DNA of 64,000 bases, taken from Darksidea phi. Lineage: Eukaryota > Ascomycota > Dothideomycetes > Pleosporales > Lentitheciaceae. Where the stretch lies: NCBI GenBank assembly GCA_030770425.1, contig JASJFT010000075.1, positions 62,001-126,000 on the forward strand, given 5' to 3'. Below the pieces are notes generated by a model. That model had not been told where the DNA came from. It searched no databases and saw only the letters and a program-made list of their open reading frames with translations. Both the position numbers and the translations under genes were made by a program. Shown one piece after another: positions 12,481 through 53,735 of this stretch (positions are counted from its first letter, which is position 1; each line of letters opens with the position of its first letter).

Positions 12481-12558
12481 GGAAACACATGGGAATCGAG
12501 CATTCTCTTCCCACCTCCCTTTGAAAACCCATATATAATCTAGTCTGACGTACGTGGC

Positions 12559-29646: not shown

Positions 29647-30491
29647 TCAGACGGCTCGCCTCCTCCGGTGACGCATCTCCGTTTGCACCTGCCGCCGCTC
29701 GGCCTGCACAACACGACTGCCGGCCATGCGCTTCACCGTGTCGAGCAGTTTGTCTGTGCTGTCTAACTCCTCGATTTGGTCACCGCCGCCAATGCTCTTC
29801 CCTAGTATGAGGATGTTGGGTACGGTTCTTCTGCCGGTTTTCTTTCCGAGTATGTCTTGCAGCTTCGGGCCTAGCGGATGCTCGTCCAACTCGACGACGT
29901 AGGGCTCGGGGACGAGGTTGTATTTGTCTAAGAGGATGTGCTTCGCTTTCTTCGAGTGGGGACAGAACGTCTTGGAGAAGATGATTACTGAAACGTGTGT
30001 TAGCAGAGCTCAGCAAGGGAAGAAGTGTCGCGTGACTTACTTGGACTCCTTTTGAGGATCGCATTGAGCTCGACTTCGGCTTCGTGGTCCTCTGGTGACT
30101 CAGGCTCTTTGTTGGCTAGCTTGTCGCGTGGCCTGCCCCCCACGGTGGCCACGCCTTGTACAGGACCTGTCTTGTCGCCGTCCTTGACAATCTTTCTTCC
30201 ACCGACGGCTATTTGTGGTCCGCTTCCTTCCACCGACTCGAAGTATTTCTGGTTCTTCTTCTCCGCCGAGTCCTTCGCTGCGTTCTCGGCGGCCTTCAGT
30301 CGCGAACTGACGTCATCAAAGTCGCGTTGTCGCGTCGCGTCCTGGTACTGCTTTGTGTTCAGAGCTTCCTGCGTCTTGAGATAGAATGCCGAGTTTCGCG
30401 TCTGCCGTGATGAAGTCGTCATGTAGAGCGTCAAGACCACCACGAGAACGAAAAGGAGTCCAAAGACCCTCATTCTCCTTTGAGAGGGCAT
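29647..30491 (-). CDS. Membrane-anchored glutaredoxin (Grx6/Grx7-like)
   Basis: Exons 30491-30041 and 29987-29647 give 263 residues; the intron is 53 nt (GTAAGT, GCTAAC, TTTCAG). A single N-terminal signal-anchor (VFGLLFVLVVVLTLYM) is followed by a charged stalk and the glutaredoxin fold. The active site is FSKTFCPHSKKAK, a CPHS motif. Downstream conserved pieces are VVELDEHPLG, the cis-Pro TVPNILI and GGGDQIEELDS. This type II topology places the catalytic domain in the ER/Golgi lumen, as for yeast Grx6 and Grx7. CPHS differs from the CPYS/CSYS motifs of those yeast proteins and lacks the second active-site Cys, so the chemistry should be monothiol. Confidence 0.9.
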
Positions 30492-32007
30492 GGTGGCGGG
30501 TGCGAGGTTCGTGAGGCCGAGACAAGGGCGGGCAAGCAGCAGTTATGCGGCGGGATAGGTTGTCAAGCTGCGACTTGGATATACTGGCTAAAGCTGGAGG
30601 CTGTAAACGGGACACAGCACAGCTTTTATTCGCGGATGCTAGGCCCAAGGGCCTGAATTGGCGAGGTTTTGAGTTCAGAGCGGATATTTAAGACCGGGCG
30701 TTGGGCGGCCAGTCGGCGGGGGCGGAAGCGAAGAGCAATGCGCCTGGCTCGTATATTAGAGTTATAATAGCTCTCGAAGCTATCGCTGTGATCGCATAGG
30801 AGTATTCAGTAGATTCTGCAGGCGCAGGAGCGGAACGGGGGTGTTCTTTTGAAGGGTGCGCGGGGACAGCCTCGCGTTGGTCGTGATGGTGATTCAAGGA
30901 ATGCAAGGCTGAGCTTGGCCATCGTGGCGTCACCTGCCGGTCATCGAGCCAGGAGCCGTCGCACCCGGCCCTTCTCTCTGCGTTTCAAACCGCCAAAAGA
31001 CGGCCCAGGACAGCTGCTAGCCTAGAAGACGTGGCCTGGTGCGCCGTTGGCCATGGCCGGTACGCTGCACGCTTCGGAAAAGACTACGGTCGGCCCAGGG
31101 CGGCCCCATCGGGGTTGTTCATCATTATGTTTGTTACAAGGCACACTTTCGGCAAGGCACCACCACTCCACTCTGCATTTCCGCCAACGTTGCTGCCTAG
31201 ACTATGTAAGCCATGTGTCTCGATAGAATGCAATCCCTTCGCCCGGGATTCCTCTGCGCCGATCCCTGCGTTGGCCATGTGCACTAGTTCAATCAGAAGT
31301 CGATGCGCGTGTCGGCGAGCCAGGTCGGTTCGTGTTGCTTCGCGTACGGGTTGAATGGGCGTATAGCCCGCCGATATGCCTCTCTTGCTTAGAATATCAC
31401 CTATGTAAGAACCAGAAGCTTTCATATTTTCAACCACTCTAATTATTGTGGAAACTGTAGAAAAGTGCATAACTCCGCCAGCCCATTGTTTCCCGTCGCG
31501 CTGAGCGGCAGAAAGCTTCGAATCGCGGCTGTGTAACAGCAGGCTTAGGCTACTGTACAGGAGGCTATTGCGGCGTAGAGGGTTTATGGAGCGTAAATAG
31601 ACGTTAAGCTTAGCAGTCTACGTAGCGGGCGGAATTGGATAATTAGTCCTAAATATAATCGAACATATTAGCTCCTATAAGCTAATCTAAACGGAGCTTC
31701 GCTTTAATAGATAGGAGCTACGTACGAAGCGCGAGGGGCTTCCTATTAAAGTAAGACGGATCTAGAAGGTAAGAACAGGACGGAGAGACTAGAGACTAGA
31801 GAGCGGCGTAGAGTAATACTAGCTCTGTATACTAGTTCTAGAGCTAGGACTAAGAGGCGGAGAGATCTAATTAGAGCGACTAAAGTTCGACGCGCTGGTT
31901 CTAGAGCTCCTGCTGTAACTGCTATACGAGCATGGCAATCGGGGTCTGATTCTGGCCGGACATGATTCCGGGGACTGACTGGCTGGCTGGCTGGTTGACC
32001 TATCTAC
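30492..32007. other. Gene-poor, repeat-like region
   Basis: About 1.5 kb without a convincing gene. From about 31550 the sequence becomes repetitive in character (GAGAGACTAGAGACTAGAGA near 31780, GGCT tandem near 31980), consistent with transposon debris. Confidence 0.4.
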
Positions 32008-32222
32008 TGTAAGGGGGTGACCCCGTCCTCACTACACAGCTGACTGCGCACGGAGAGTCCGACTATAACAGTGCGAGGAGAAACGAATAGATAGGTGAGG
32101 AACTGAACCCTGCGGAGCAGCCTCCTAATATACTAGCTATCGGAGCGGAACAACCCGCTCCGGGCGACACTGAACGACAGCTCCGTACACTACGGAGCGC
32201 GAATGGGCCTCAGCCCATTACA
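32008..32222 (+). mobile_element. Probable solo LTR
   Basis: 215 bp begin TGTAAGGGGGTGACCCCG and end CAGCCCATTACA, giving the TG..CA ends and the short inverted TGTAA/TTACA termini of retrotransposon LTRs. The interior (GCTCCGTACACTACGGAGCG) has small inverted repeats. No reverse transcriptase or integrase frame is found on either side, and no second LTR is seen. A clear 5-bp target duplication is not present (TCTAC left, CTAGG right), so the call is tentative. Confidence 0.45.
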
Positions 32223-32386
32223 CTAGGAAACGCATAGATATATTCTAACATAGAATACCTACCTACGTTATAATATATACGACATTAGGTATAAGACGCT
32301 TTTTTTTATTCCTATAGTAAATTTATGACATTTGTCCTTCATGTTTGACAATAGTCCACATCCCCGCGTAGTTCTTTTTAGGTATA

Positions 32387-33712
32387 TCATACTCCGTAGT
32401 TGCGCGGCGTTCCCAGAAATTCATGAGTAGCAATGGAGGTCGGCGTTTGCGAAGACGGATTCCTCGAATACTGCTCTTCTGGAGCTACAAGCTCGAGTTG
32501 ATCATCCATCTGCCTATAGGTATTGCTATCCGATGCATTCTTCGTTCGTTTTTTGGTGGATTTTGCCGAGCTCATCCAGGAGGACATCCTTGATCTCAAA
32601 CCACCACCGGTCCGCTTCTCGATGAGATTCCACAGAGGCGGTCCGCATACGACTATGATGGCAATCGAAGGCTCGGCCATGCCCCATATTATGCCTTGCG
32701 CAACGTTTACGGTGACGGTTTCTGGATCTTCGAGTCCGGAGTTGAAAACGGCGGCCATGCGAAACCCCCCAACGATGATGTCCCTGTGGTGATGGAAAAT
32801 CAGAGAGCGTGTTGGGAAAGATTTATTTCACAAGGCACTTACACAATACCCAGTCCAAAGACAATGAAGAGAAGGGTCCTTTGTCGTTTCCCCATGACCA
32901 ACTTTATGGTCTGTGGAATGGGAAGGAAAAAGATGAGCAGGTCGCAAAAGATGCCCCAAGCACAAACCACCACGAAAGACGTGGTAGAGTTTCTGCATGT
33001 TGCTTTGGGGTCCTTCTCTAGTATGGTTTTGTCCCAATTTGCTTCGAAAGGCCGGCACAGAAGTGAGGCGTTCAACACAACGTACAGAACTTGTCCCATT
33101 GTCACGACCATTGTAATCCAGACTGATTGCCTGTCAGAGAAGCTTTCGACTACGCGACATCTTGAAGTCGGGTTCCTGCAAACGCAGACACGTACCTAGA
33201 TACCGGAATTTTTTCCCGGCAACCATACCAAACAGTCGTAGAATGAGGACCAGCAGAGAGGCACGAATAAGTCCCATCGATATACCAAACGGATATTGGA
33301 TGAATGTCACCAACTGTTTGGCGAAAGGATCGGGTTAGGAGACCTTTCAGATATCGCAGATATGAACATACCTTGAATAGAGTGGCAAGTTTCTGAGCTG
33401 GATTTTCGAGGTTGCTAACTAGGTGGCCCACCCCCCCTTGGAAAATAGCTGTATGGCGTTAGTGATGATGATCTGGTGTAGAAAGAGGAGTTGCAGTAAG
33501 TGCGACGTGCCCACAAACACGAGAACCCCTTGGACGTAATAGACCACCGTCCCACCAATAAGAAGGTAATCGTCAAAGCCATAACGAGTGCTTCTCAGAT
33601 GTCGCGAGTACAATCGTCCAAGCGTAGCTAAAAATGCGAGAGCCAGAAAGATGACTGTCCAGGAAAAGACTAGTTTCGCATCATAAGTACTGAGTGTGGG
33701 TTCCCCAGCCAT
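32387..33712 (-). CDS. Rhodopsin-domain seven-transmembrane protein at the left cluster edge
   Basis: Five exons, 33712-33511, 33448-33372, 33313-33196, 33122-32843 and 32783-32387, give 357 residues. This is the fungal rhodopsin-like integral membrane family (PTH11-related). Visible parts are FSWTVIFLALAFLATLGRLY, the GFDDYLLI motif, GGVGHLVSNL, a Cys-containing loop (LCRPFEANW .. ATCRN), CDLLIFFLPIPQTIKL and the final FRMAAVFNS .. WGMAEPSIAIIV. A Ser/Lys-rich cytoplasmic tail follows. Intron 1 (33510-33449, 62 nt) must start with GC (GCACGT) to keep the frame; a missing G in the G7 run at about 33427 is the alternative. I start at ATG 33712. Such proteins often sit in fungal clusters with unknown roles. 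Confidence 0.8.
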
Positions 33713-34722
33713 GGTCACCAAAAAAAGTCGGAGGTGAAAAAGTGGGCGTTAGACTAAGCCGGCCAAAAAGGCTACTGCCCGCAGCGAACTAGATAATAGT
33801 TTGCCGGAAGGAAAAATCATAAGCAGGGGGGTAATATCATGCTCAGTAATCGGGCCCCGAAAGCGCATGGGGGGATGATGCAGGAAACCCTGCACATGTG
33901 GTAAGGGACTACGCCCTGCACCGGGTAAATAAGGCCATGGAGTTGGATTCTATGTTTAGAGAAGTGCTCCAAGACAATGCATATTAGTGGGATTGGCAGA
34001 ATTTGCGGACGTGTAGAAAGAAAGCGCTCGGTGACAGCGAGGCGTAGGCTGCATCCGTCGTCGACCCGTACTGTCTCTACGCGAGACGAGACATGGACAC
34101 GGAGTATTGTAGGCAGGCCTGCCCTGCACCAACAGATCCTTCCCGCTTCTTGAAGCATATTTATGCAAGTACTATACGCCGGGGCGAGATACGCGATAAT
34201 AGGCGAATAACTCCCTGTCTTTTCTACCCCAGCCAGGCTATTATCTGCCTTCTTTTCTTTATGAGGTATATGAAGTCAGACCGACTAATATATTAGATTG
34301 CAGAGTCTTTGTTGATCACTAGTACTGGCGTGATCATTGCTTATAAGCTGACATAAGCTGACGTTTGCTAATCTCAATGCGCAGTATAAGCATGATAAGA
34401 CTTCAAGATATAGCCAACGAAAGAGCCTCTTGACCCGAACACCACCACTGCTTATGGTACTTACCGTTCAGAGCCACAGGAAACAGTCACGTAGTCGTCC
34501 TCTTCGTTGCCTGCTTTACAAATTCTGGTAGAAATAGATGCTTGCCTGACCTGGAACACAAGCGCGACTGCGGTGTGAAATTACCGATTGCTGGGCTTCC
34601 CAGGTGTATGATCTTGTCACGTAATAGGCAGCTGGCCAGCTGGCGAATATTCTATCCATGGTAAAAGATCGGCACAGCGTGCATTCTGCACAATTACAGA
34701 GGACCAGTCCCTCCACCGAGTC
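33713..34722. other. Intergenic between rhodopsin-domain gene and terpene synthase
   Basis: About 1 kb. It holds the promoter of the rhodopsin-domain gene. No further gene is supported. Confidence 0.5.
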
Positions 34723-36143
34723 CTAACTATCTGTACCAATGACATCGAGCTTGACATCGTAACGACCGGTCTGACTGCTCCATAGAAGGATGCCCGTGCA
34801 ATAGTTCCTGGCCACTTGAATGTACGCGCGAAGATCCCGCTCCGTCTTAACGTCGTCTTCGCAAAGAGCCAAAAGCTTGTCAACAGCGTCGTCGAACAAC
34901 TCGACCGAGCGCTCTACAATTTCAACGCAACCTGCGATGGAATCTACAAGATTTCCGCATTGCTCAAAAAGAATCGGAACTAGACTGTTGATGACGTCTT
35001 GCTTCTAGATATATGGTTTAGCAGCGAATGATGAAAGTCTTCCCTATTGAGTCGGCCGACGTACCAATTCTTTCTTCAGCGACAACACATCGTTTATTCT
35101 AGCTCGAATCAGCATTGCATGTATAACAAGGGATGGAAACTCACACCCAGACAATGCGGTTGCATTCTTCCCAAAGAATTTTCATGTGCACGCTTTCCAT
35201 GATCCTCTCGGGCAGTCGAATACCCGTGGCGTACCTATTATATCAGAACAAATTTACTACATCGCATTCCACGCATAGACATACTCATTGAAACACAAGA
35301 ATATGGTCACCCCACTGGACCCCATCCGAGTCGTCGTATAGTCGCGTTGTGATGGGAGTTTCGGATCCCGTCGCCTGACCTGTTCTACATCCGACATCTC
35401 AATGTAGAATCGGATCTCATCCAAGAGGCCTTTGATCGCATCTGTGAATAGTTAGCTCTGTACCGAGGTAGTGGCTGTGTCGGTGTTTTTGTTTTTACAA
35501 GCACTCACCCCGCGGATAAGACCTACGCACCCCCATCTCCACAGGTTTGAACAAGCGCAAAGCAGCAATCGGAAAATCCTGTTCGTCTCGGATCCTAGCT
35601 TCGGGTCCAAGATGGACGTTTATGTATTGGAGTGTTTTGGCGCGGAGGATTTCGGCTTTTGTGAGCTCCGCGCATGAAAGCCCGACATGGTCGTTGATCT
35701 CTGCACGGAATTAGAATCATCGAGAGCAAAGTGGACATTTGAACGATACCGTCATCCCAAAGAAATAACTTTAAAAGCTTCAGTCAGCCGAGCAAGCTCA
35801 TCGAAGAGTCATTTGTGTATGAGGTGCTTCTTACCCAAGTAGCCATCAATGTTAAATGCTGTGCGACTTCGTCATCTGCATGTGGCCAGCAGCAAGCGCC
35901 GAACAGCCCAAAGTCATGCTTGTCAAGCTTTGCCACCAGTGCTTTCGACGAGTAAACCGTTTCCAGACTCTCGTGAACTAGTTTTCGCAGCTGGTCCACA
36001 TCCCGATGAACCTCCGCTTGAGGCCAGTGGTCGAACAGCCGCTCCAAATTGGGAATCCTAGCGTTTTGCGACTTTATTCTCTTCAAAGTCAAGTCCTTGC
36101 TTGTAGTTACAGGCATTCCCTGGAGTTTTGTTTCCGGGCTCAT
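34723..36143 (-). CDS. Class I terpene synthase (sesquiterpene cyclase)
   Basis: This is the core enzyme of the cluster, expected to ionise and cyclise farnesyl diphosphate with Mg2+. Seven exons, 36143-35835, 35768-35750, 35700-35509, 35441-35285, 35234-35145, 35098-35065 and 35004-34723, keep frame throughout and give 360 residues, a normal length. The Asp-rich motif is LFLWDDEIND at D108-D113; its fifth position is Asn rather than Asp. The NSE triad is NDVLSLKKE (N258, S262, E266). The C-terminal RY pair is TGRYDV (R348-Y349), which contacts diphosphate in this fold. Exon 2 is only 19 nt and codes for the first half of the Asp motif. Single-domain length and no prenyltransferase domain exclude a bifunctional diterpene type. 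The product cannot be predicted. Divergent from the P450 across 544 bp. Confidence 0.93.
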
Positions 36144-36687
36144 TCTTGCTGTAGTGACAAACCGAGTAAATTGCTAACAAAAGTGTGGATATGTCGATGG
36201 GCCCCTTCGTGTTGGGTTCTCTCCTCCTACTCGATTGATTATTGCCCGGGTCCGAGATGATGATTTTGGGAACGGGAAGTAAGAGTTCTGACATAAGTCG
36301 CAGCTGCATAGCTGGATGCATAGGGTGACTCTACGGGAGAATTTGCACCCGAGTCTTACGCCGATCTAGTCTCTTGCCGTGCATCAACATGTCCGTTACA
36401 TATAGCTATTCCTCATCGAGTGATGACTGGTGGGAAGAGGGAACTGGTGGGAAAGAGGCAACTGGTGGGAAGAGGCAACTGGAGGTCTGAAAGTGTGATA
36501 TGCATGCGGTTACGGTGCATATGCAAAGTAGGTGACGTAGCTTTACCCACTTGCGAACCATGGGTTATATGCCTAGAAATTCGTCGTTTCGTAGCAGGCA
36601 ACGTTTGTCAACGACGGCATATTTGTGCAATTAGCGCCAAAAAGGAAAGAAAGGAAGAAAAAAAAAAATTCGATCAGAGATCCAACG
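36144..36687. promoter_or_regulatory. Bidirectional promoter between terpene synthase and P450
   Basis: 544 bp separate the two opposite starts, so the core cyclase and the P450 can share control elements. It contains the purine-rich tandem repeat at 36425-36484 and an A-rich leader just before ATG 36688. Confidence 0.6.
36425..36484 (+). repeat. Tandem repeat in the shared cluster promoter
   Basis: Three and a half units of about 17-18 bp, consensus ACTGGTGGGAAGAGGCA, in direct array. Units differ by one or two bases. Confidence 0.85.
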
Positions 36688-38540
36688 ATGTTCTTACACT
36701 TGGCGGGTTACATCCTCGCCGGCAGCGTGGTCCACGCCATGGCGCTCGCCATCTACAACCTGACCTTGCACCCATTGGCGAAATTCCCCGGGCCAAAACT
36801 CACAGCCGCGACGGGATGGTACGAGTTCTTTGTCGACATGTTTGGCGGCCAGGACGAAACATTCGCATTTCGCATCAAGCGGATGCACGACCAATACGGG
36901 CCCATAGTACGGATCAATCCCCATGAGCTGCACGTCAATGATCCGGATTTCTTCAGCCAACTCTACGTTGGTGGGAGTAAAAAAAGAGACAAATATCCGC
37001 CCGCGGCCGCCTTGATCGGGATGCCGGATGGAATCTTTGGCACGCCAGGCCACAAGCTGCACCAAATGCGCCGTGGGGCGATTGAGAACATGTTCTCCGC
37101 CAAAAACGTCGCGTCGCATCAAGAATTGCTGTCGCAAAAGGCAGATCTCCTCTGCAACCTGTTCCGTTGTGCGTTGCTCGATGGAAAGCCTTTGAACATT
37201 CGCTATGCGCTGTTTGCATACACCACGGATTGTTTCGAAGCGCACGTGCTTCCCGAAGGCGAACGTATGAATTTGCTCCAAAACGAAGAATTAACGGCGG
37301 CGTGGCGGCGCAGCATCGAGGGAATCCTGCAATTGTCTCCCCTCGTCAGACAGTTTCCTTTCATGGTTGATTTGGCGAAATACCTGCCACTGTGGGCGGT
37401 TCAAAGCACGTGGCCGGAAATGGGACTCGTTCTCGGAAGATTGCAGGGAGGTGCTAGTCTACACGGATGAAGATGGATGGCGAGACTAACACTCGACGAC
37501 AGGATATGAACAGATATGCGCAAAGGGCGATACGGGACTATGGCGACGGGAGGTGCAAAACAACAGACGGCTACCTGTGGCAAGCGATGTTATCAGCAGA
37601 CTTGTCGCGACCGGACAAGACAGCGCCTCGCATGGCCGAAGAGGCCATGACCCTTCTCATCGCCTCGGGCGACACGGGGGCCAGAGTTTTGACCGTTGCC
37701 ATGTACTTCATACACGAAAATCCAAAGATCCTGCAACGGCTGCGCGAGGAATTGAGACAGGTAACGCCCGATGCCACGGACCATGTCCCGTTGAAAGAAC
37801 TGCAGGGTTTACCTTGGCTTGTGAGTGACGGCCGAAGTTCTTTTTCCTTTTCCCTTTTTTTCTCTCTTTCGTTTTTTTTCTCTTTTTTCTCTTTTTTTTC
37901 CACCTCGAAACGAACAATGCACTGAATCATGACAGTCGGCTGTGATTGACGAGTCCCTGCGGATCGCGAACCTGATCACCAGTCGGCAGCCCGTGAGCTC
38001 GCCGGAAGAAAGGCTACATTACAATGGTTGGGACATAGCGCCTGGCGTGAGTAGGCCCCGCTGATGGGTTGCGTATGCATCCAATCTCACTCGTCTTGCA
38101 AGGTTCCGGTAGGAATGACTTTGGGCACGTACTTGGTCAGCGAAAAGGCGTATTCCTCGCCCCTCGCATTCGAGCCCGAGCGATGGCTGCCGTCCCACAC
38201 GGAACACGATCGCAACCGGAAGTACTTTCACCCTTTCCACAGGGGGCATCGCATGTGTATCGCGCAGAGGTAAGGGATTTATTTTTGCTTCTTCTTTTCC
38301 CTAACCTTACTGACTGGGACGGCTAGTCTTGCTCGAGCGGAGATGATGTACTGCCTTGGCAAACTGGTTCGGCGATTCGAATGCCAGCTCTACGATGTTG
38401 TCCGCGAACGGGATATTGACGTGCATCGAGACTGCTTCTTGGGGGAGCCAAGGAAGGACACCAAGGGTGTGCGGCTTCTTGTTACGAAGGATGCTGCCGA
38501 GGATCAAAAGCGGCGTAGCACGGGTCATCATTGTCTGTAG
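36688..38540 (+). CDS. Cytochrome P450 (trichodiene oxygenase-like)
   Basis: A microsomal monooxygenase, likely hydroxylating the terpene skeleton. Five exons: 36688-about 37452, 37503-37820, 37936-38046, 38103-38269, 38327-38540, about 524 residues. An N-terminal anchor (LHLAGYILAGSVVHAMALAI) precedes HPLAKFPGPKL. The I-helix is LLIASGDTGARVLT, the ExxR motif ESLR, the PER motif FEPERWLP, and the haem loop FHPFHRGHRMCIAQ with Ala where Gly is common. Intron 1 is problematic: the canonical donor GTGCTA at 37451 shifts the frame by one, whereas a GC donor at 37453 (GCTAGT) with the acceptor CGACAG keeps it. Either a GC-AG intron or a one-base lesion is present. The other introns are canonical (GTGAGT, GTGAGT, GTAAGG). 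Confidence 0.87.
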
Positions 38541-38810
38541 GTGGTGATAGAACTTGTTGTGACAATGAATGAATGAATGCATGAGTCTGCATGTCAGCTT
38601 CGAGACAGGGCAAAGCACCCCCGCATATATGCGTGATAGCTTCCAGGACTTTGATTGGTCAGTCAGTCGGGGTCAACACCATGGCTCTGTCTCCGAAAAC
38701 GGACAAGCGCGCTTTCCCGTTCCTTTATCCGTAGCAGGTGCGGGAGGGGTGACGTGCAAGTGGCCCCACCCGAGTCCTTTGCATCACGTGTTTGTTCATT
38801 GCCACAACAT

Positions 38811-38874
38811 GTATGTATGTGTGTATGTATGCATGTACGTGGGTAGGCAAGTAAGTAAGTAGGTAGGTAGGTAC
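38811..38874 (+). repeat. Imperfect tetranucleotide microsatellite (GTAT/GTAG)n
   Basis: GTATGTATGTGTGTATGTAT grading into GTAAGTAAGTAGGTAGGTAG, followed by a short GTACG. Confidence 0.9.
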
Positions 38875-38936
38875 GTTAGGGAAACAGCCTGGAGGCACTT
38901 TTCGTCTCTTCTCTTTTCCTATTTCTTCCCACTCCC

Positions 38937-38960
38937 CTGTCTGCCTGCCTGCCTGCCTGC
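38937..38960 (+). repeat. (CTGC)n microsatellite in the leader of the first GMC gene
   Basis: CTGT followed by five CTGC-type units (CTGCCTGCCTGCCTGCCTGC). Confidence 0.9.
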
Positions 38961-38993
38961 TTCTCTTCCTCTTGCCCCAACCATCCCCCAACT

Positions 38994-40643
38994 ATGAGCG
39001 AGACAGACTACCTGATTCTGGGCGGAGGCTTGACAGGCACCGTCATTTCCTCCCGCCTCGCCGCAGCCCTTCCCAATCTGGATGTGACCCTTGTCGAGGC
39101 TGGAACCGACGAGCACTCCAATCCAACCATCCTCTCGCCCGCCCAAGCTCATGCTCTACGCGAGAGCGACCACGTTTGGAAGCATGCTACAGTCCCCCAG
39201 CGACATCTCAACGGCCGATGCATCTCCGCCACCACCGGAAAGACGCTGTCTGGGAGTAGCGCAGTCAACGCCGGCTGCTGGACCCGCTGCTCGTCGACGG
39301 ATTATGACGATTGGGCCTCTCAAGTCCCGCGAGGGGAGCGCTGGAGCTACAGTGGCCAGCTGCCTTACTTCAAACGTTCGGAAACGTGGTACAATGCCGA
39401 AACCAACAAGGACCAGCACGGTTTCCAAGGCCCCATCAAGATTCACCCCGCCATCGAGAATCGATCCTATCCGCTTCGTGACAAAGTCAAAGCTGCCTTC
39501 GTCAACGCCGACATTGGTCTGAAGACGAACGAGGATGCCCAGGCTGGCAATCCAATCGGCCTGAGCGTTTGGACTGAGAACTGGGATCAAGGAGTGCGCC
39601 AACCAAGTGGATCAGTCTATGGGCTTGATCGAGTCAAGGTGCTAACTGCTGCTCTGGCCTCCAAGATTCTATGGTCCAAAGCCGGCTCAGGTGAGATGAA
39701 AGCCCGGGGGGTAGAGTTGGCCGACGGCACCGTCATCTTGGCGCGAAAGGAAGTCATCGTATGTTGTGGCGCACTTAGAACCCCCCAGCTCCTGATGCTG
39801 TCTGGAATCGGCCCCCGGTCACAACTCGAGCCCTTGGACATTCCCGTGGTGCTGGAGAATGAAGCCGTCGGTCAGAACCTCCACGACCAGATCTCGCTGT
39901 CTTTCTTCTACAAGCTCCACAACGGCACCGAAAACGGCTGGTCGCTCGGTAGTCCCAACTTCAATAAGCCAGAGTACGCCTTGGGGAGCCCCGTAGACTG
40001 GCTCGCCATTGCTGGCGTGAATCTAGAACATGTCAGAAAGGGACTGGCAATGGACGGGGCGTCGGCCGACCATGCGCTCCTCAAGCCCGAGCGGCCTCAC
40101 ACCGAGATGGTCGTGGTATACGGGCCAGTCGGCGTCAGCATCCCAGGTCTCCAAGCTCCTTTCGATGGAACCATCATCACGGCTGCAGTATTGAACCTTC
40201 TACCTACCTCTCGAGGATCCGTCACCATCAAATCCTCCTCTCCGAGCGTGTCGCCCGATGTAGACCCGAATTACTACGCCACGCACACGGATCGGGCCAT
40301 CCTGCGCGCTGGAGTTCGCAACCTGCTCAAAGTCCTCGATGGCTTCGAGGACGGCGTCCTGGATGGAGAGCTGGTAGTCGAACCTTGGCAGCCGCTCACG
40401 GTGCAATCTTCAGACGATGACATCGATGCGCGGGTCCAGGCTGCTTCCAGCACGTGGTATCATTACGCTGGCACGGCGTCGATGGGTGCCGTGGTCGATG
40501 CTGATCTTCGTGTCATGGGAGTGGGCGGATTGAGGGTCGCTGATGCTGCTGTTGTCCCGGTGCCGCTGGGCGGTCATTATCAAGCGGCCATGTATGCTCT
40601 TGCGGAACAGGCTGCAGACTTGATCATACAGGATGCAAACTGA
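38994..40643 (+). CDS. GMC oxidoreductase 1 (FAD-dependent, intracellular)
   Basis: A glucose-methanol-choline family flavoenzyme, likely oxidising an alcohol on the terpene to aldehyde or ketone. It is a single exon of 549 residues, without a signal peptide. The FAD-binding Rossmann motif near the N-terminus is YLILGGGLTGTVISSRL with VEAG ending beta-2. Other GMC landmarks are GKTLSGSSAVNAGCWTR, CCGALRTPQLLMLSGIGP and the C-terminal WYHYAGTASMGAVVD with the catalytic His. A second His lies in GGHYQAAMYALAEQAAD. It follows the P450 on the same strand. Unlike the other two GMC genes of the cluster it has no introns. Confidence 0.93.
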   Translation: MSETDYLILGGGLTGTVISSRLAAALPNLDVTLVEAGTDEHSNPTILSPAQAHALRESDHVWKHATVPQRHLNGRCISATTGKTLSGSSAVNAGCWTRCSSTDYDDWASQVPRGERWSYSGQLPYFKRSETWYNAETNKDQHGFQGPIKIHPAIENRSYPLRDKVKAAFVNADIGLKTNEDAQAGNPIGLSVWTENWDQGVRQPSGSVYGLDRVKVLTAALASKILWSKAGSGEMKARGVELADGTVILARKEVIVCCGALRTPQLLMLSGIGPRSQLEPLDIPVVLENEAVGQNLHDQISLSFFYKLHNGTENGWSLGSPNFNKPEYALGSPVDWLAIAGVNLEHVRKGLAMDGASADHALLKPERPHTEMVVVYGPVGVSIPGLQAPFDGTIITAAVLNLLPTSRGSVTIKSSSPSVSPDVDPNYYATHTDRAILRAGVRNLLKVLDGFEDGVLDGELVVEPWQPLTVQSSDDDIDARVQAASSTWYHYAGTASMGAVVDADLRVMGVGGLRVADAAVVPVPLGGHYQAAMYALAEQAADLIIQDAN

Positions 40644-40941
40644 GGTAAAGTGATTGCGGAGAGGGTCTAGTTTTGGCTGCTGCCTCTCATATCTGAGCAT
40701 TTCCTTGGGGGGGTATGGAAAGGCATACGATGTCGTGTACTGCCCTCAGCACGCGACCGTGATGTATGTAATTAGCTACATATGTATGATTCTATATCAT
40801 TTACTACGGGTCCGTCGCTCAGTCAATGAAAAAAAATCATCAATATTGCCATTCATTCATTCCTCCTCTTTAGACGTCATGAAAGAAGCTTATAATAATA
40901 GAAAAATTCAAAATCCAAGTAATTCGCACAGGTGCATGCCC
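40644..40941. other. Intergenic, convergent 3' ends
   Basis: About 300 bp between GMC 1 and GMC 2. No gene seen. Confidence 0.5.
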
Positions 40942-43130
40942 TCACCAGGCGCTCTTGATCTCTGCCGCAATCTTCTCCGCCAACCCATCTAAACGAAAAG
41001 TCAGTGCCCGCAAACCAGATGATGCAGGAAAAACAAGAATACCAAGCAACGCGGGAGACGGGGGAAAGACTTACAAACGGTAGCCTGCGGGTGGCCCGGT
41101 ACCAAGACAGGGAAAACAGACGCATCCACAACCCTCAACTTCTCCACGCCAAACACCCTCGCCTTGGAATCCACCACCGCCATCCGATCCCCGCGCACAC
41201 CCATGGCATTCGTGCCCGCCGCATGATACACGCTCTGCGCCATCCTCCTCACCTGCTTCTCCAGCTCCGCATCACTGCTCACCGCATACCCGGGGAACAC
41301 CTCATCGTTGCCGATCCTCGCGGCCCGGAAGGACGTCGTGTTGGCGATCTCGCGGCAGCGCTTAAGCGCCGCGACGCCGACGGCCACATCGCGCGGGTCC
41401 TGCATCCACGCCATGTCGACGATGGGGTTGTCGGCGGTGTCGTTGGACGCGAGGCCGACGGTGCCGCGCGAGAAGGGCGCCACGGGCACGGCGGCGACGG
41501 TGACCAAGCTGGCGGCCGACGGCGCGCTGCCGAGCTCTTCTTCCTCGCCCATGTAGCCGTCGAAGGCGACGAGCTCGATGTCTGGCCAGTCCTGTCCGAA
41601 GGTGCGGTCGAGGTCTGCGCGGATCGAGTCGTTGACGAAATGTGGCGGGAGCTTTTCGAAGGCGATGATGTCACCGGCGGCGTTGGTGAGCATGCCCGTG
41701 CGGTTGCCGTTGTATTGCTCGGTTTGCGAGGCCATGTAGGTCGGGTCGGCGAGCGCGGCGTGCGTTTGGAGATTCATTTCGTACGAGGGGCCGAAGATGA
41801 GCTGGTCCTACGTACCGCGTGGCGGTTAGTTAGGTCGTGAGGAGCGGAGCTGCATGTACTACCCACCCATAGGTTTTGGCCTACGCCTGGAAGGTCGGAG
41901 ATGACGGGGATGTCGTGCTGGGCGAGTTGTGCGCTTGGTCCAATGCCCGAGACCATGAGGAGTTGAGGGGAACGGAACTTGTGTTTGGATACTAAGTGAT
42001 TTTTCCTCGAGAGGGGGATTTTGCGATGCGACTGCATCTACTTACTGCACCTGCTGACAAGACGATCTCCTTCTTCGCGGAGAGTTGGTAGACGCCACCA
42101 CCGCTGTCAACATTGACTCCTATCGCAGTCGTTCCGTCGAAGACAATGTTTTTCGCGAGCGTGGACTTGTACACGTAGAGATTCGTCGTCGACTCTCTGA
42201 AAGATTTCGAAAGGTACGCGGTCTCGGAAGAGCTTCTGATCTGCTCGACAGGATCGATAGTGAGCGCAGTGTACTGCCATCCGAACAGGTTCCCGCTCAG
42301 AAACCCTGGAATCTCCTTGATGCCGATCTGGGTCAACGCGGGCCCAAAGTATGAGGAGATGGAGTTGGCAAAGTTCGCAAAGGAGACTTGGACGGGACCG
42401 GTACTGCCAGCGTAGATTTCTTGCTCGATGTCGACGCTCGCGTTGGCGGGCCGCACGGAAGCGTTGGGGCCGTTGAGCTTGACACTGCGTTGGAAGAAAG
42501 GGAAGAAACTTGACCAGGTGTAGGATGCGTCGCCGGTCTTGTTGGCCCACACGTCGTGACTGCCCTTGGAGGCTCTGCGCTGTAGTCAGAAAATACTGTA
42601 TAAGCCTGCAGGCTTCACCCATGTTGTAACGTACCGGTGGTAGAAGAAGAAGTTGCGCGCGCTTCCCCCTCCGAGTGTCTTCCCTGAAGTGTAGAGCATC
42701 GACTCGCCCGTGAGACCCTGCACCGTTCATCAGTCGCCGTTCAGTTGGCATGGCGCCTTGCGACGCAGATGATGCGGTCAGACCTGTCAAAACATACTGT
42801 TTGCGGTGTAGTCCGCTGCTGCCAGTCAATCAATGGGTTCTTCATTGTCGGGTTTTTGCCCACAAATCTCGACGTAAACGCGGGCACCGTCGACCAATTG
42901 CCATTGTCCTGTTCGTAAAACCCTCCGGCCTCAACCACAGCAACAGAACAAGTGCCGTCCTCTGCGAGACGATGCGCCACCGCCAAACCCGCCGTGCCAC
43001 CACCGACAACAACGTAATCGAACGACGCCGGGAAACCCGGTCGTCCGAACTGCGACCCCGGTGGTAGAGCTCCCGCATGGCAAGCTCCCGCCAACAGAGC
43101 CGTAGCGGCGAGGAACGCTGAAGCAACCAT
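40942..43130 (-). CDS. GMC oxidoreductase 2 with signal peptide
   Basis: A second GMC flavoenzyme of 611 residues, probably secreted. Exons: 43130-42798, 42717-42635, 42574-42046, 41977-41867, 41807-41075, 40988-40942; all junctions keep frame with GT..AG ends. I chose ATG 43130 because MVASAFLAATALLAGACHAG is a clear signal peptide; an upstream in-frame start would bury it. Motifs: FDYVVVGGGTAGLAVAHRL with VVEAGG for FAD, SGKTLGGGSARNFFFYHR, LSAGAFRSPQLLMVSGIGPS, catalytic YHAAGTNAMG and the last-exon GLAEKIAAEIKSAW. Several N-glycosylation sequons (NWS, NAS, NDT) fit a secreted aryl-alcohol- or glucose-oxidase-like enzyme. It may act on a late, exported intermediate. Confidence 0.92.
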
Positions 43131-43763
43131 AGTGTATTGTTTTTTTCTTTCCGCGAAAGAGGCCAAAAAACCAAAAAATAATGATTGCACCAACACGGAC
43201 ACTCCTTTCCCTTATATCCGCCATGTAACAAGGAATAGGATGAGGTCATACAGGGGTCAAGCTGCGAGCAATCAGCACGAGGAACCGCACGCCGGCTCAA
43301 CTAAGCGCCGACCTCCGTCCGGTTGGAGCAGAAATGGGGTAATCGCGTATCGTATGACGAATGCGCTACCTTCGTACAACGAAGCCTCAGCGTCTACCTG
43401 GCAGGTTGATGAGGGCATAGTAACGGCGTGAAACCCTTTGAGCGCGCGTGCTTGCGCCATAGGGTACTATGCGTACGTGAGATGCATGTAGAGTAGATAT
43501 CTAAGGTCAAGGGATTGCACGCGTCCCGAATGTTGACTGCAACACCTCCACGCCTCGCGCACCCGTAACTCCGGCTCACCTCCGCCCTCTTATAAACAAT
43601 CCTGAGTCACCCCCTCGCCGCTTTGCACACTCCACCTCGCGTCAGTAAACACAGCTACATGTGCGCCGAAGCGCGCCATCCCCAACAATGCCGGGAAGCT
43701 CTCCGGCAGGCTCAACCGCCTTCTTCGCACTCACACGACAGTGCACAGCTCTCCACGACATCC
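43131..43763. other. Intergenic, GMC 2 promoter
   Basis: About 630 bp; nothing beyond the promoter of GMC 2 is expected or seen. Confidence 0.5.
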
Positions 43764-45126
43764 CTATGGAAATGTCCCGAGCCCTTCAACTTTGTCTGTC
43801 TGGTCAAAGTCATACGCGTTCCCATACGGCCGGTTCAAGTAATTCTTTGCTATGTCTTCGCTCTTAACAAACGTGGCCGCAACCTGCAGACCAGTCTTCT
43901 CCAACGTCAGTTTCTCCTTGAGTTCTTCGGCGAATTCAACAGTCATTCGGTTGCGATACCATGGCGCAAAGTGTACTACATTGTGTTAGACCAACAAAGT
44001 CTTGTCAGCGATTGGAAAGACCGACATACTGAAAGCAAGCATGACTCTCGGCCGGTCGCTCAAATTAGGCTTCCCGCCGTGCCATAGCCTCAAGTCTCGG
44101 ACAATGCTGCCCAAGTTAACGGTGCTATCAGCATATGTGTCGCGCGTGTCAAGCAGATCGGCTTTTACGGTAAAGTGGGAGATTAAGAGTAGACGGGGAG
44201 AGAGCTTACTGCACGCAAGTCAGTACAAGACTACCCGTAACTGTACGGCCTACTTGCCATGCTACCTTTTTTTACTAGTGGTTGGCACGGTCCTCGGGCA
44301 TCTTTCTGCTTCTTGAGCAGGTCTTTCTTGATCCTTCCACTTGCTCGGTCACCATGCTCGCCTTCTTGGTCAGCAAGCGTGGTGTTGGTGTGCGTGCCCA
44401 GCCAAACTTCGGTAGAGCCATTTTGGGCGTCCATGGTAACAAGTGGGACATTGACAACGAGCGCAAACGGAATTCGCGGGTGATCAAAGTCGGCATCATT
44501 GTGCGTAGGCTGCGATGCCGGTGGTGCATCTGCCGTGGGCGGAAGAGCCGTGTTTCCTGAGATGAAACGGAGCGATGGCTTGGGACCCAGCGTGGTTGAA
44601 GTCACCTGGGTTACGATTGGATCTGTCTATTGTCAGTGATTGGAGTTGTACTACTAGTCAGATTACAATCGCGTTTAGCAGTAGGAGGCCTGGACAGCCT
44701 CCAGGTACGGAGAACATTACATGACTGTGATAAGGCCCAAGTATAGATGCAGGTGCCGGTTTGCAGAACGATAGGAGCAGAACGTTATCTGGCAAGGCAA
44801 AAGATGAAGGGTGATCAGACGGGCGGTCACTCACTGACAAATACTTCCTCAAAGAAGTACTCCTCTGTCAGGAGCGGATCTTGTTGGATGTTGCCTTTGT
44901 GATAATTGAACGGACTGTCCTTCCTACTCTGAAGAGCATATGCATCCTCGACCATTTTCTTGTTCAACTTGTCAAGAATCTCATGCGGAACCATGTCCTC
45001 AAGCACCACGAGTCCATCGCGGTGGAGGGCTCGCGTGGCGATTTCGAGATTCTTCTGACTAAGAGCACCATTCTTGACCTCGGACGAAGAGGGTTGGATG
45101 GAAATGGGTGTGGACGGAAGGGACAT
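43764..45126 (-). CDS. PhyH-family Fe(II)/2-oxoglutarate dioxygenase
   Basis: A phytanoyl-CoA-hydroxylase-like non-haem iron oxygenase, a plausible second hydroxylating enzyme of the pathway. Best model: exons 45126-44835, 44622-44254, 44161-44030 and 43975-43764, 334 residues. The iron ligands are the HxD of QPTHNDADFDHP and the distal His of VRDLRLWHGG; the 2-oxoglutarate Arg is in DRPRVMLAF. N-terminal ATRALHRDGLVVLEDMVP and C-terminal IHFAPWYRNRM fit fungal members. Intron 1 is long (212 nt). The acceptor of exon 3 is uncertain: the frame-keeping AAAAG at 44162 adds about 17 residues before SIVRDLRLW that I do not expect from the family. ATG 45189 is an alternative start. Confidence 0.83.
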
Positions 45127-46143
45127 GGTGGAAGTGTGACTCGTGAGGGGAAGTGACGTAGTCGTTTGAAAGCGGAGAGATCGAGGCACTCTGGACGATA
45201 TGGTCTGAGGGACGATAAGCGAATCTGTTTGACAGTTTGATATATGCTAAGGTTTGGTCTTGATTTTATATACTGAATCCGCTTTGAGATGTGTAAATGT
45301 TCTAAAGCGTGGAGCGGTTAGGTTTGCAAGAAGGGTTAGTGGGAAGCTAGATAGAAAAGAGAAGTGCAACCGCTACATTGCCTCGGTCGACCTTGAGATC
45401 TTTTCATCGCGTCAGCCTGTCGATTTCGTTTGCGAGATAGCGCGTTGGGGAGAGGGAAAACGGAATGGTGACCATGAATGTCAGAGGCCAGCGGTAATTC
45501 AGCGCTTTCTTTGGCTGCGAGTTGCGGATTTACTCAACATGATTGGAATCCGTCTCACGCTTCCATGCTTCTCCGGGTCCTTCATCGCGATGGCACACCT
45601 GGACTCAGGAGACCACGTGCCGATTGATTATAATAATTCCTTACTCTCTCTGTGCTTATTTTGACAAGCGGATACTTCCGTGGGCGTTGCTGGTTAACAA
45701 TTTGCATTTAACCCGATAAGAATGCAGAGTACCTATGACATCATATATCTCTCTCCCACGGGTGACAAAGCGCCACTAACACAACCTCCCTCATAACCAT
45801 CCACACAGCAGGGACCGCGACAACTTCCAAGACACGGCAGCGACATGCCAAGGGACAAAATATGCATCCCCAGCCAAAAATGGCGGCGTGGTACTCTGTG
45901 CTGCGCCGTGCACGCTTAGTGAGCCATCGGTTCTGCAGCTTCGCAGCGCGTCAGCATACACCGCTCCCGCGGTATTCCTCAGCGCGACGTTCGGGACCCT
46001 GTTCATGCTGCAGTTCTGCACAATGACTCCCTGCTATCTGAAGTTGTAGTGCGGTACTTCTTGATGGGACTGGCGCACGTGTTTCTATTCATCGATGCTT
46101 CCCTCATAACATCGTTCGTTTTACAGCTCGGTTGAGCCTGACC
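45127..46143. promoter_or_regulatory. Divergent intergenic region inside the cluster
   Basis: About 1 kb between the dioxygenase and the second rhodopsin-domain gene, transcribed outward from it. No gene is supported. Confidence 0.5.
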
Positions 46144-47558
46144 ATGTTCCCCAGCTACGGGCGTCCGGAACGCGATGGCATCTTCATCGATGTTTTCGAC
46201 GAACAGCTAGCGAAGGTCGGCTACTCGGATATGACTTACCAGTATAGGGTCTCGTTGGCGGTGGAGATACCGCTTATCTTTCTGGCGGTTACCGCTGTTT
46301 CCTTGAGAGTGTTTTCCAGGATAGGAATCAAGAAGAAGTTGGCAACCGATGATATTCTGATTATTGTCGGCACGGTACGTTTGGTTAAATGTTATGTGTT
46401 TCGGACTAGAGACGGGCTAATGCTAGTAGTGCTGTGCGTTGGGGAGAACGGTCATTTCATGCATTAGCTCAGGCGATGTGAATGGCTTTGATAGAGATGG
46501 GTACGTCAGAATTCTTTCACGTCGCAACGTAGCAAGGTAGGCATTTACTAACCAAAAGGGCGCGTTTAGACCAGCAACACCAGCTCAGCTCCCGTACTAC
46601 CAAGTAAGGATCCATAGCTATTCAGATTATTCATTCATCTAACGCCTACTAGCACATTTTCGAGCGCCGCATCGCCTACATCTCCTCTGTGATCTTCACC
46701 CGCCTAAGCATTCTAGCATACTACCTCAGAATTTTCCCGCCCCAAATAACCACTCTTCGGCACCTGACCATTGCCCTCATCATTCTCGCACTCGCTCAGT
46801 CCATTGAGATTATTACTGTCCTCGCTGTTTCCTGCCGTGGCATCTCTAAGCTTTGGACAAAAGACTGGGTCTCCTTCTCCGGTTCCCAGTGCTTCAGCTC
46901 ATCGCGGTACTCCTACTCCGCGGCCATCGGTGACACTGTGGTCGACAGCCTCATCTTCACGCTCCCAATCCCATATGTTTGGCGCCTTTCTAAGCTCCGG
47001 ATCCGGCAACGTCTAGGCCTGGTAGTAGTGTTTGGCTTGGGCTTCGTAGTCTGTGTTGTGGCTCTTTTACAAATCCCATTTATTCGCCACCGTGAAAAGA
47101 AGTCTAGCTACTTCGGCGGCACAATCAATCTCCTCATTGCCATCCAGATATCACTCGCCATTGTTGCAGCATCCCTGCCCGACCTCCGCGCTCTCATCGC
47201 ACGAAGTTTCCCCAAGTTCTCATCTCTACACCATCGAAGTCTCGTCACGGCGGCTGCGGACACTCTCCAAAGGGCCGCGAGCGGGGGTGGAAGTCGGGAT
47301 GTGGAGCATGGGAGGGCGCAATGGGCCGGTGGTCGTGGTGTTAACAGTAGCGGAGATGCGAGCGGAGCAACATCGAGTGGGGAGATGCAAGAAAATAAGA
47401 GAAGAGGTACGACTGAGGCTGCAAGAAAATACAAGATGCCAGATTGGTTAAGAGGTAGTTTGCCAGCTAGCTTGATGGGTACTCAGGTCACCCATACAGA
47501 GATTACAAGGACATTGAGTAGGGAGGATGTAGGGCTACCCGCACGAGCGCCTGAATAA
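46144..47558 (+). CDS. Rhodopsin-domain seven-transmembrane protein 2
   Basis: A second member of the fungal rhodopsin-like 7TM family. Exons 46144-46374, 46430-46500, 46570-46603 and 46653-47558 give 413 residues with canonical splice sites. The first ATG in frame is 46144 (MFPSYGRPERDG). Helices visible: VEIPLIFLAVTAVSLRVFSR, the TDDILIIVG motif, IFTRLSILAYYLRIF, ALIILALAQSIEIITVLAVS, a LIFTLPIPYVWRLSKLRIRQ block and LLIAIQISLAIVAASLPDLR. The long Gly/Ser/Arg-rich tail follows. It differs clearly from the other 7TM gene at 32387-33712, so the two are not a recent tandem duplicate. Role in the cluster, if any, is unknown. Confidence 0.85.
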
Positions 47559-48853
47559 AGACCAATCGATTACGCGTGCTTGCAGTCGCACGACAACCAC
47601 GACAATACTAGCCAAGAAGTCCATCGAGCTCGTATTCGTATGGCCCCTAGGACGAACTCCGCAATGTTCGACATGCGTTCTCCGCACCAAGGCTACCAAT
47701 CTTGGATCTCCTGCAAAGCGCTTTGCGCTCTTCTGCGACTTCTGAAACACGATAGACGTTGAAGGGTATTACGCTCTGAAGGCTGTTAGGACCCCTAAAC
47801 CACGGAACGCCAAAGATGCAGCATTCCCGTCCCAAAGCGATTAACAAAAGAGAGGCGGCTTTCGACTAATTGTATACAAATTTTAGCTACTACTATAAGT
47901 GTAATGCTACTAAGTACTAGCTGGTCGTGCAGGTTAGGGGTGTCAAAGGGAGAGGGGCTATCTCATGGAGAAAGAGGAAGGACCTTGTAAGCATCGCAAG
48001 GATCATGAGGGGTAGCCGGCGGGAGGAAGATGCTGTTTTTAGAGGATAGGACCTATTCCTTTGCTGTGTTGCCAATAATGTGTTACTAGTCCATTTTTTG
48101 CCGCGAGATGAAAACTTTATTGATCATATGATCAGCCTAGGACTGCTTCTTAGTTGACAGAGCGTACCAATGAGGCGTCACGATTGCTAGCAAGGTCTCA
48201 CTAGTGCTCGCGCATGACTCGCCGACATGGACACAAAAGACCGATGCTGATGTTTTTGTGTTCTCCCAGACCTTGGGTGTGGGTGTTTGCGTCAGCAAGG
48301 TGGTGGCTGCTTAGTAAAGAATAGGGAAGGTATCAGCAGCCTAGCGTCGTCCATCCCAAAGAATGTGTTTAGTGCGGATTGATGCTAGACCGTTTGCGCG
48401 CAATTTGTATTACCTCTCGAACCATTCGATGTTGCAATGGCACAATGGGGTTCCGGAATCGCCGCATCTCCCCGTGTCGGACCCCGTGCCATACTGTGCC
48501 TCTCGCTACCGCCACAGGACGCGATGGCTCCTTACCGATCGCTCGCTGGTTGCGTGTTTACCCCGCTCGAAACAGCTAATTACGATCTTCCTTTTTCAAG
48601 GTGCGCTCGGTCAGACCAGTAATGCACTCTGCTATGTTGGCTTAGTGATAATTAAACTCGTGGTTGATAAGGAGATTAGGGGCTACGCTTGTGATACTAC
48701 GCTTGCGAGACCAAGGTTCCTGAGAGATTGGCGCTGACGCGCGGAGTCGGAGTAAAATGTTGGCATCAGGGCTGCCATTTACCCGATAGTTAGTACTTAT
48801 ATCTGCCGACAGAATCCTTAAAGCATTTGTTAGTATATTGCTTGTGGTCGACC
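47559..48853. other. Gene-poor stretch inside the cluster
   Basis: About 1.3 kb, moderately AT-rich around 47870-48150. No gene is recognised; the right end carries the promoter of GMC 3. Confidence 0.5.
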
Positions 48854-50714
48854 ATGGCAGAAACATACGACTTCATAATCGTCGGAGGCAAGCCCGCTCA
48901 CGCACGGTTCGAACAGCAAGTGCTGACATTCATCCAGGGGGAACAGCAGGATGTCTCCTCGCGCGCCGCCTCTCCGACACTGCAGCCCGACCCTCAGTCC
49001 TCCTCGTCGAAGCCGGCTCAAACCCAGAAGGTGATGAACTCCGTCCACCCTTCCTCCGCTACTCAGCGCATGCTCTCCGTCCAGATCTCGACTACGCCTA
49101 CGAGACCACGCCGCAGAAAGCACTAAACGACCGTGTGATTTCGTATAACCGTGGGAAAGGTCTAGGTGGCAGCACTGTGCTCAACTTCCAAGTGTATCTG
49201 TATGGATCTGGCGAGGACTACAACAAGTGGGCGGAGCTGGTAGGCGATGAAGACTGGAAATGGGAGAATACGAAGAAGTCGTTCAAGAAGATTGAAAACT
49301 TTGAGTTTGCGGGAGCGAAGGACTATCCGACTCTTGCGAAGCCGGATCCGGAGGAGCATGGGACGGATGGTTTGGTAAAGGTGTGTTTACCGCCGAAGCT
49401 CGAAAAGGGGATATTGCCCGCTATGGAAGCTGCTGTGAGGAGTGGGGAGAAGATCAATCTGGATTTCAATAGCGGGAATCCGATAGGGGTTGGCATCCTT
49501 CCCATGTCAACGTCCTCAAAGGATGGGAGAACAACGAGTGCGACGGCGCATTTGGTGGATGCACCGCGGAACTTGCTGATCTGGACAAATGCAGTGGTGC
49601 AGAGACTGAAGTTTGAGGGAAACAGAGTCGTTGGGATCGAGACGGCTGATGGACGGAAAGGTGGGTAGGGATCGCATCGGATTGATACTCCACTGACACA
49701 GTCAGCAACATCTGGCAAAGAAGTCATCATCTGCGGCGGCGCAATCGACACGCCCCGTCTCCTCCTCCTGAACGGCATTGGCCCCGCCAAAGAACTTGAA
49801 GCACTCGACATTCCTGTCGTTAAAGATCTTCCTGGCGTCGGAAAACATCTCCAAGACCATGTAATGTCTTTTCTCATGGTAGAAGTAGACGGCAGCCACA
49901 ACGACCGCTACGCCCTCGAGAGCAACGAAGAAATGATAGCAGAAGCGCGTGCCCTCTACAAGAAGGATCGGTCCGGCGCCTTTGCTCTGCACCATGGCGC
50001 ACTTTGGGGAGGTTTCTTGAAGTTGCCAGACTTGACATCGTACCCAGAGTTCCAGGCTCTTGACAAAAAGACGCAAGAGTTCCTGCCCAGGGACACGGTA
50101 CCTACCTACGAACTTATCGGAAACTGCATGCTCTTGCCCGGCTTGGAAATACAGAAAGGGAATAGCTATATTTCAGCAGTAACCTTTTTGATGAATGCGC
50201 AGTCCCAAGGCTCTGTTACGCTACGGTCCAGCAATCCAGACGATCGGCCGGTCATCGATGTAGCCTACCTTTCGCACCCGTACGACCGACGTGTGCATCG
50301 AGAGAGTATCCGCCAGACCTGGATCAAGGTCTTTGAAGATCCCGAGATAAAAAAAGACATCAAGAAGAAGCTGCTTGGACCGGAGAGTCTGTCGGATGAG
50401 CACATTGATGCGTACATGAAGGATGTGGCGGGTACGGTGTGGCATGCGAATGGGACTGTTAAGATGGGGAAGAAGGAGGATCCGGGGGCTTGTGTGGATG
50501 CGAGCTTTAGAGTTTATGGCATTGAGGGTTTGAGGGTGGCGGATTTGAGTGTCTGTCCGTTGACGACGAAGTAAGTATTTGTGCCCCGGCCTTGGGGACG
50601 GAGAGTCGATGTGGCAGTGCTAATCTATGTGCTAGTAATCATACGCAGGCGACAGCTTACCTAGTGGGGCAGAAGGCGGCGGATAAGTTGATTGCGGAGT
50701 ATGGGCTTGCGTAA
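48854..50714 (+). CDS. GMC oxidoreductase 3 with a GC-AG first intron
   Basis: Exons 48854-48887, 48938-49660, 49706-50570 and 50636-50714 encode 566 residues of an intracellular GMC flavoenzyme (no signal peptide). The first exon is only 34 nt (MAETYDFIIVG). Its 50-nt intron begins GGAG/GCAAGC and ends ATCCAG; this GC-AG junction exactly restores the invariant FAD motif VGGGTAG followed by CLLARRLSD, and no GT donor is available. Further landmarks: NRGKGLGGSTVLNFQVYLYG, ICGGAIDTPRLLLLNGIGPA, catalytic TVWHANGTVKMG and last-exon NHTQATAYLVGQKAADKLI. The end of the cluster is placed here because the next gene is a housekeeping exonuclease. Confidence 0.92.
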
Positions 50715-53019: not shown

Positions 53020-53735
53020 CGGGGTGAATTTTGTTGGTATTCAGAAGAGCGGAGGAGCGATTTCTTGCGTGTGGTGATCTGGGGCGATGAATGACCCCCA
53101 CAACTGTGCCGCACAGGTGGCGGGGGTATCCGCTCTGACATACGTGTACGGCCGCACAGGCATATACCGCACTCACCGTGACCTCTCAGTGCTTGCCACG
53201 TTGGTTTTTTGCCAGAGATGTAAAGTTTAAATCCACGGATTATGCCGTCCGAACAGCGGGATGGGCCGTAGTGGCCGTAGTAGTACGCTACCAACTAGTG
53301 ATAGACTCCGAATTCAGCCACAGAAGTTTGTGTACACTAGCCCCCTATATTGAAAATCCGTATAGTAAAACCCCCTGTTCAGAGCTACGTTGTTCCGCTA
53401 CGTACTACCTATCCTGATAGTCTTCAATACTGTTACTGAGCTCTGAAAGTGGGAATTTGAAGGGTTGAAACATGGCTGTATGATCAAAGCCTATGTACAG
53501 AGAGAGGTCCAATCACCCATTTGCTGACTCTAAGCATTGAGAGTGGCATGTAAGACTCCTCGCTACAGTGTATACGCCTCGTCACACGCATTCTTAATCA
53601 GAGTCAGCTCTCGGGTCAGACTCTGCATCATAATATGAAGAGTCAAAGGGGAGTATCAAAAGCTCACTTTGCGGGCATCTCCCAAAAAGTCTATGTACAC
53701 TGTGCTAGCTGACGACACTCTCTAACTCTATACTC
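53020..53735. promoter_or_regulatory. Divergent intergenic region with the best-preserved R1 repeat
   Basis: About 715 bp between two opposite starts, including the R1 repeat at 53332-53436. The promoters of the exonuclease and SRR1-like genes lie on either side of it. Confidence 0.5.
53332..53436 (-). repeat. Dispersed repeat R1, most complete copy
   Basis: Read on the minus strand: TATTGAAGACTATCAGGATA, GGTAGTACGTAGCGGAACAA, CGTAGCTCTGAACAGG, then ATATAGGGGGCTAGTGTACA. It matches 1996-2090 nearly base for base except for an extra segment of about 15 bp in the middle. Confidence 0.78.

Follow-up and report, generated by a model that had tools for sequence, protein, structure and literature searches.

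We analysed a 64,000-nucleotide stretch of the genome of Darksidea phi (contig JASJFT010000075.1, positions 62,001 to 126,000), referred to below as the window, and read eight of its genes, at positions 32387 to 50714, as a small and uncharacterised fungal terpenoid biosynthetic locus. The likely core is formed by a terpene synthase (TS), a cytochrome P450 (P450) and GMC1, one of three GMC oxidoreductases, and on balance we consider this interpretation probable. It is drawn from the domains and motifs of the encoded proteins, the uninterrupted run of the genes, the divergent orientation of TS and P450, a pair of related sequences from elsewhere (P0107 and P0127), the non-tandem origin of the three GMC genes and the kinship of GMC2 with patulin synthase (PatE). 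Terpenoid clusters of this kind are normal in moulds, and each family present is a usual tailoring family; the locus combines a backbone gene with contiguous tailoring genes, the pattern by which a biosynthetic cluster is recognised. An earlier note on this DNA had proposed a terpenoid locus, and that much is supported by the TS domain and motifs, the contiguous oxidising enzymes and the divergent TS-P450 pair. Pfam profile matches confirm the assigned families, that of PhyH over joined exon pieces. Its overall interpretation is partly supported. Gene models were derived from three-frame translations by hand, an automatic splice search and subsequent corrections, and gave the following features:

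31640 to 32229, no strand: dispersed repeat at the left border, with 21 partial matches (70-95% identity) on 15 other contigs
32387 to 33712, minus strand: 7TM1, seven-transmembrane fungal rhodopsin domain protein (Fung_rhodopsin 4.5e-41, profile positions 2-236 of 237)
34723 to 36143, minus strand: class I TS, 7 exons, 363 amino acids (profile match and motifs DDEIND, NDVLSLKKE and RY)
36144 to 36687, no strand: TS/P450 intergenic region, possibly a shared promoter, judged from sequence only
36688 to 38540, plus strand: P450, 5 exons, 524 amino acids (p450 9.9e-44; ESLR, FHRGHRMCIA)
38994 to 40643, plus strand: GMC1 oxidoreductase, single exon, 549 amino acids, no signal peptide seen (both GMC domains)
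40942 to 43130, minus strand: GMC2 oxidoreductase, 6 exons, 611 amino acids, probable signal peptide, patulin-synthase-like (GMC domains and solved relative)
43764 to 45126, minus strand: PhyH-type dioxygenase, frame not cleanly closed (PhyH 4.7e-15 across X-joined exon pieces)
46144 to 47558, plus strand: 7TM2, fungal rhodopsin domain protein, 413 amino acids (Fung_rhodopsin 1.4e-39, profile positions 1-237 of 237)
48854 to 50714, plus strand: GMC3 oxidoreductase, 4 exons, 566 amino acids, GC-AG first intron (both GMC domains)

The TS model has an open frame and matches Terpene_syn_C_2 (PF19086) with an E-value of 9.6e-20 (71.6 bits, cut-off 23.7). The aspartate-rich and NSE motifs are defined elements of such enzymes, and both had been called complete; this holds for the NSE motif and is slightly generous for the aspartate-rich motif, which has Asn at its fifth place followed by Asp where a relative from Cadophora has DDEID. 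The C-terminal RY motif is present. That relative, from Cadophora sp. DSE1049 at 31% identity, was the one sequence returned from 5.8 billion proteins by a search limited to sequences that have five-residue words in common with the query and reach at least 0.55 of its length. A search of this type can miss distant relatives and intron-rich metagenome genes, but in our judgement should catch orthologues of at least 45% identity in annotated genomes. By these comparisons the TS appears to have very few close relatives and to be unusually isolated. In the D. phi genome (51.35 Mb, 477 contigs) the protein search found only the TS itself; a profile search gave eight other PF19086 matches and missed the window TS, so the genome may hold more TS genes. 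A foreign base composition was considered for the TS and rejected, as its third-position GC of 0.57 lies inside the 0.51-0.65 of flanking open reading frames (ORFs). The best solved relative (82 bits over residues 20-352) is PDB 7w5f, 'Terpene cyclase 6', which we take to be TaTC6. This structure also shows a WDDEI motif and an NSE region that matches, but the similarity is far too low for predicting the same product. Judging from this nearest solved relative, farnesyl diphosphate would most likely be the substrate and the product a sesquiterpenoid. TaTC6 is described as the trichobrasilenol synthase of Trichoderma atroviride (PMC7687074).

The second member of the proposed core, the P450, starts 544 bp from the TS on the opposite strand. 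It matches its profile at 150 bits (cut-off 22.8) and carries ESLR as the ExxR motif and FHRGHRMCIA as the cysteine-bearing haem loop; in most of the 13 clade members compared over this loop the sequence is FHRGHRNCIG. Its first intron was modelled with a weak GC donor, at a point where unspliced relatives diverge from the alignment. Relatives at 44-52% identity comprise 14 annotated proteins from six genera, presumably of the Pleosporales, seven Colletotrichum species and Diaporthe eres (best 120 of 288 matches, with 7997 candidates scored). The first exon was used for a tree of 21 sequences, which places the fragment P0107 as sister of the window P450 with a support of 0.97.

GMC1 has both GMC domains (5.2e-32 for the C part, 2.2e-30 for the N part). 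Among the best 120 of 1220 matches, its closest relative, of metagenome origin, shares 95% identity, and seven further relatives share 66-75% over the full length, including those of Lophiostoma macrostomum (72%) and a Pyrenula (66%). Two shorter fragments reach 74% and 82%, and no other match listed exceeds 49%. One GMC1 homologue, P0127 (67%), comes from the same source as P0107 ('lgn'), and the contigs of both measure 18192 bp. Because these two share a source and a contig size, and P0107 is sister to the window P450, the linkage of P450 and GMC1 is probably conserved in one distant relative. Viral contigs, when scanned with GMC1, yielded no syntenic contig. Together with the fungal rhodopsin genes, the kin of P450 and GMC1 suggest a filamentous ascomycete, perhaps close to the Pleosporales.

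Several observations weigh against the proposed core. The shared contig of P0107 and P0127 is deduced solely from the equal size of 18192 bp, and P0107, at 47% identity, is not the closest P450 by plain identity (P0087, 52%). Neither the 14 named species of the P450 clade nor any named species bearing GMC1 appeared among the results of the TS search; L. macrostomum, for example, has GMC1 without a TS match. No 7-, 8- or 9-mer is common to at least five of the six cluster promoters, the control for 7-mers having a mean of 0.62 and a maximum of 7. Pairs of CGG and CCG were also listed for the promoters.

The species distributions of P450 and GMC1 also differ. Within the best 120 of 1220 GMC1 matches, the group at 66% or more lacks all 14 of the named P450-clade species, with Massariosphaeria present at 43%; the best listed P450 of L. 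macrostomum (39%) lies on a contig of different size from that of its GMC1. TS, P450 and GMC1 seem to have different histories. The earlier note had named, as a finding that would weaken it, synteny in which the TS/P450 pair moves independently of the GMC and PhyH genes, and the observations come near to this, but they describe a distribution and not a synteny map; a working cluster could have come together recently in this lineage. Should the proposed core prove functional, it would provide a TS for which one search returned a single relative among 5.8 billion proteins, as well as an example, open to testing, of a fungal cluster put together from parts of differing history.

We observe the families and motifs of the core proteins and infer the substrate, the order of steps and the product. 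The TS would use DDEIND and NDVLSLKKE to bind metal; its substrate, a prenyl diphosphate that is most likely farnesyl diphosphate, would be ionised and cyclised, after which the P450 may hydroxylate the product. GMC1, a flavin adenine dinucleotide enzyme with the active-site His-His pair and without a recognisable signal peptide, could then oxidise the alcohol to an aldehyde or ketone. By analogy with patulin synthase, GMC2 might carry out a final oxidation step, located at the cell wall or in the vacuole, while GMC3, PhyH and the two 7TM genes may be later additions or mere neighbours. Any role of GMC2, GMC3, PhyH or the 7TM proteins in the locus is unproven, and a common scaffold for the three GMC enzymes is assumed.

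The three GMC proteins each contain both domains (3e-36 and 7.2e-26 for GMC2, 4.5e-33 and 8.6e-32 for GMC3), with active-site His-His pairs in YHYAGT/GGHYQ, YHAAGT/GHPQ and WHANGT/NHTQ. They belong to different subfamilies and are therefore not tandem copies; tandem duplication as their origin is ruled out by pairwise identities of 28-32%. The closest solved relative of GMC1 and GMC3, among many, is the alcohol oxidase 8rpf, and that of GMC2 is patulin synthase (526 bits, the next 206). Since the N-terminus of GMC2 resembles a signal peptide by eye and its nearest solved relative is patulin synthase, the suggestion of an oxidation step outside the cell is plausible. PatE (PDB 8bxl) and GMC2 share blocks of the type GHPQ..YGLAEKI/YALAEKI and xxHAxxTxAMG, but the ring that PatE closes is polyketide-derived and belongs to a different pathway (PMC7824139).

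One alternative assigns TS, P450, the three GMC enzymes and PhyH to a single pathway that ends in a highly oxidised sesquiterpenoid and includes a late extracellular step. We think this unlikely. The genes are contiguous, GMC2 is of the secreted type, only three PhyH matches were found elsewhere in the genome (by a search that misses intron-rich genes), and the triple of GMC genes lies far above random placement. Specifically, 51 GMC_C matches in the genome, or about 49 loci once split genes on contigs C57 and C213 are merged, lead to an expectation of 0.016 loci per 16.4 kb and a probability of 6e-7 for three or more. This null is too lenient, because the genome has other GMC groups, namely a triple on C115 (52.5-65.6 kb) and pairs on C209 and C23. 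Such groups, on contigs without a listed PF19086 match (the list being incomplete), speak against a single unit, as do the differing distributions of TS, P450 and GMC1, the doubtful PhyH frame and the lack of a common promoter motif in the set searched. A pathway of all eight genes, as the earlier note envisaged, is not supported, the parts seeming to move independently in named genomes. A more specific version, in which a lineage-restricted TS of a new subfamily has come to stand beside an older P450-GMC1 pair and, with two further GMC enzymes from other subfamilies and a KanJ-like dioxygenase, yields a highly oxidised sesquiterpenoid by an uncharacterised route, is equally doubtful.

A second alternative, which we regard as rather improbable, is that a variable region between housekeeping genes has collected dispensable genes and that the TS and oxidoreductases do not share a pathway. 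The dispersed repeat at the border, the GMC groups on other contigs, the abundance of the 7TM family and the different distributions of the parts would all fit such a region. The probable P450-GMC1 linkage in a distant relative does not, nor do the divergent TS-P450 pair and the open frames; moreover, the PF19086 search missed the window TS, which makes the description of those groups as lacking a TS insecure.

The PhyH gene is the least secure of the eight models. Its domain (56.9 bits) was scored on exon pieces joined with X, and the iron-site motifs THND and RLWHGG are present. The frame is not closed at two exon junctions: on inspection by hand, each in-frame option found there either depends on a poor donor or adds residues within a conserved stretch. 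Unusual splicing, an error in the assembly or decay of the gene could each be the cause. The genome search that found the three PhyH matches did not list the window gene, so intron-rich genes escape it. The best solved relative is the kanamycin B dioxygenase KanJ (PDB 6s0u, 113 bits), a bacterial aminoglycoside enzyme. Outside PhyH, GC donors occur in 3 of 25 modelled introns, at 33449-33510 (minus), 37453-37502 (plus) and 48888-48937 (plus), which exceeds the roughly 1% of fungal introns that start with GC. That the cluster is decaying, with at least one gene no longer working, would be consistent with the PhyH junctions and these GC-starting introns but is highly improbable, as the remaining seven genes show open frames and complete domains, the third-position GC of the TS lies in the range of its surroundings, and assembly error could also account for the PhyH frame problem.

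Both 7TM proteins match the whole Fung_rhodopsin domain (PF20684) at 141 bits for 7TM1 and 136 for 7TM2 (cut-off 27). An open frame in 7TM1 requires a GC-AG first intron, with eight open alternatives at a later junction; a broken 7TM1 was considered and ruled out, as this intron yields an open frame and a whole-domain match. The genome contains 160 Fung_rhodopsin matches, with some genes counted repeatedly (150 of 419 candidates scored), and two 7TM genes at the locus are unremarkable in so common a family. As a weak observation made post hoc, such a domain lies within 15 kb of the TS at four of nine loci (C5, C47, C423 and the window), the nine being the eight other PF19086 matches plus the window TS, with P of 0.004 or 0.043 at assumed densities of 150 or 300; leaving out the window gives three of eight loci and P of 0.024 or 0.124.

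Integral membrane proteins also occur in known terpenoid clusters. SAT4 of the satratoxin cluster is, we assume, a member of PF20684. The deoxyphomenone (DPH) cluster has a co-induced integral membrane protein, and differs in having three P450s, a dehydrogenase and a transporter (PMC11980549); satratoxin cluster SC1 likewise has one (PMC4117958), and the accessible parts of both texts do not name a rhodopsin domain. The Armillaria melleolide cluster also groups a sesquiterpene cyclase with P450s and a GMC oxidoreductase, but it is from a basidiomycete and has four P450s and one GMC; a term search of the available text found no PhyH (PMC7778616). The earlier note could not match the enzyme set to a characterised pathway, and among the open-access papers listed by our searches we likewise recognised no characterised cluster as one TS with three GMC enzymes and a PhyH, a result that leaves room for published examples. 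The set is uncommon in the literature examined, and the object is of an ordinary kind with an unusually isolated TS.

The run had been described as free of housekeeping genes, and this agrees with the nearest ones identified, a glutaredoxin gene (29650-30009) and an RNase_T exonuclease (51130-53040). To the left, the repeat of about 590 bp, partial copies of which are dispersed elsewhere in the genome, is followed by the glutaredoxin gene; to the right, the exonuclease is accompanied by an SRR1 protein. The reported lack of a transporter or regulator is likewise borne out, with no Zn-cluster, MFS or ABC domain in 46 query entries (some genes repeated, short ORFs partly scanned). Elsewhere in the window, at 10954-13542, an aminotransferase ORF adjoins a radical-SAM/BATS ORF in an arrangement that resembles a biotin synthesis gene pair.
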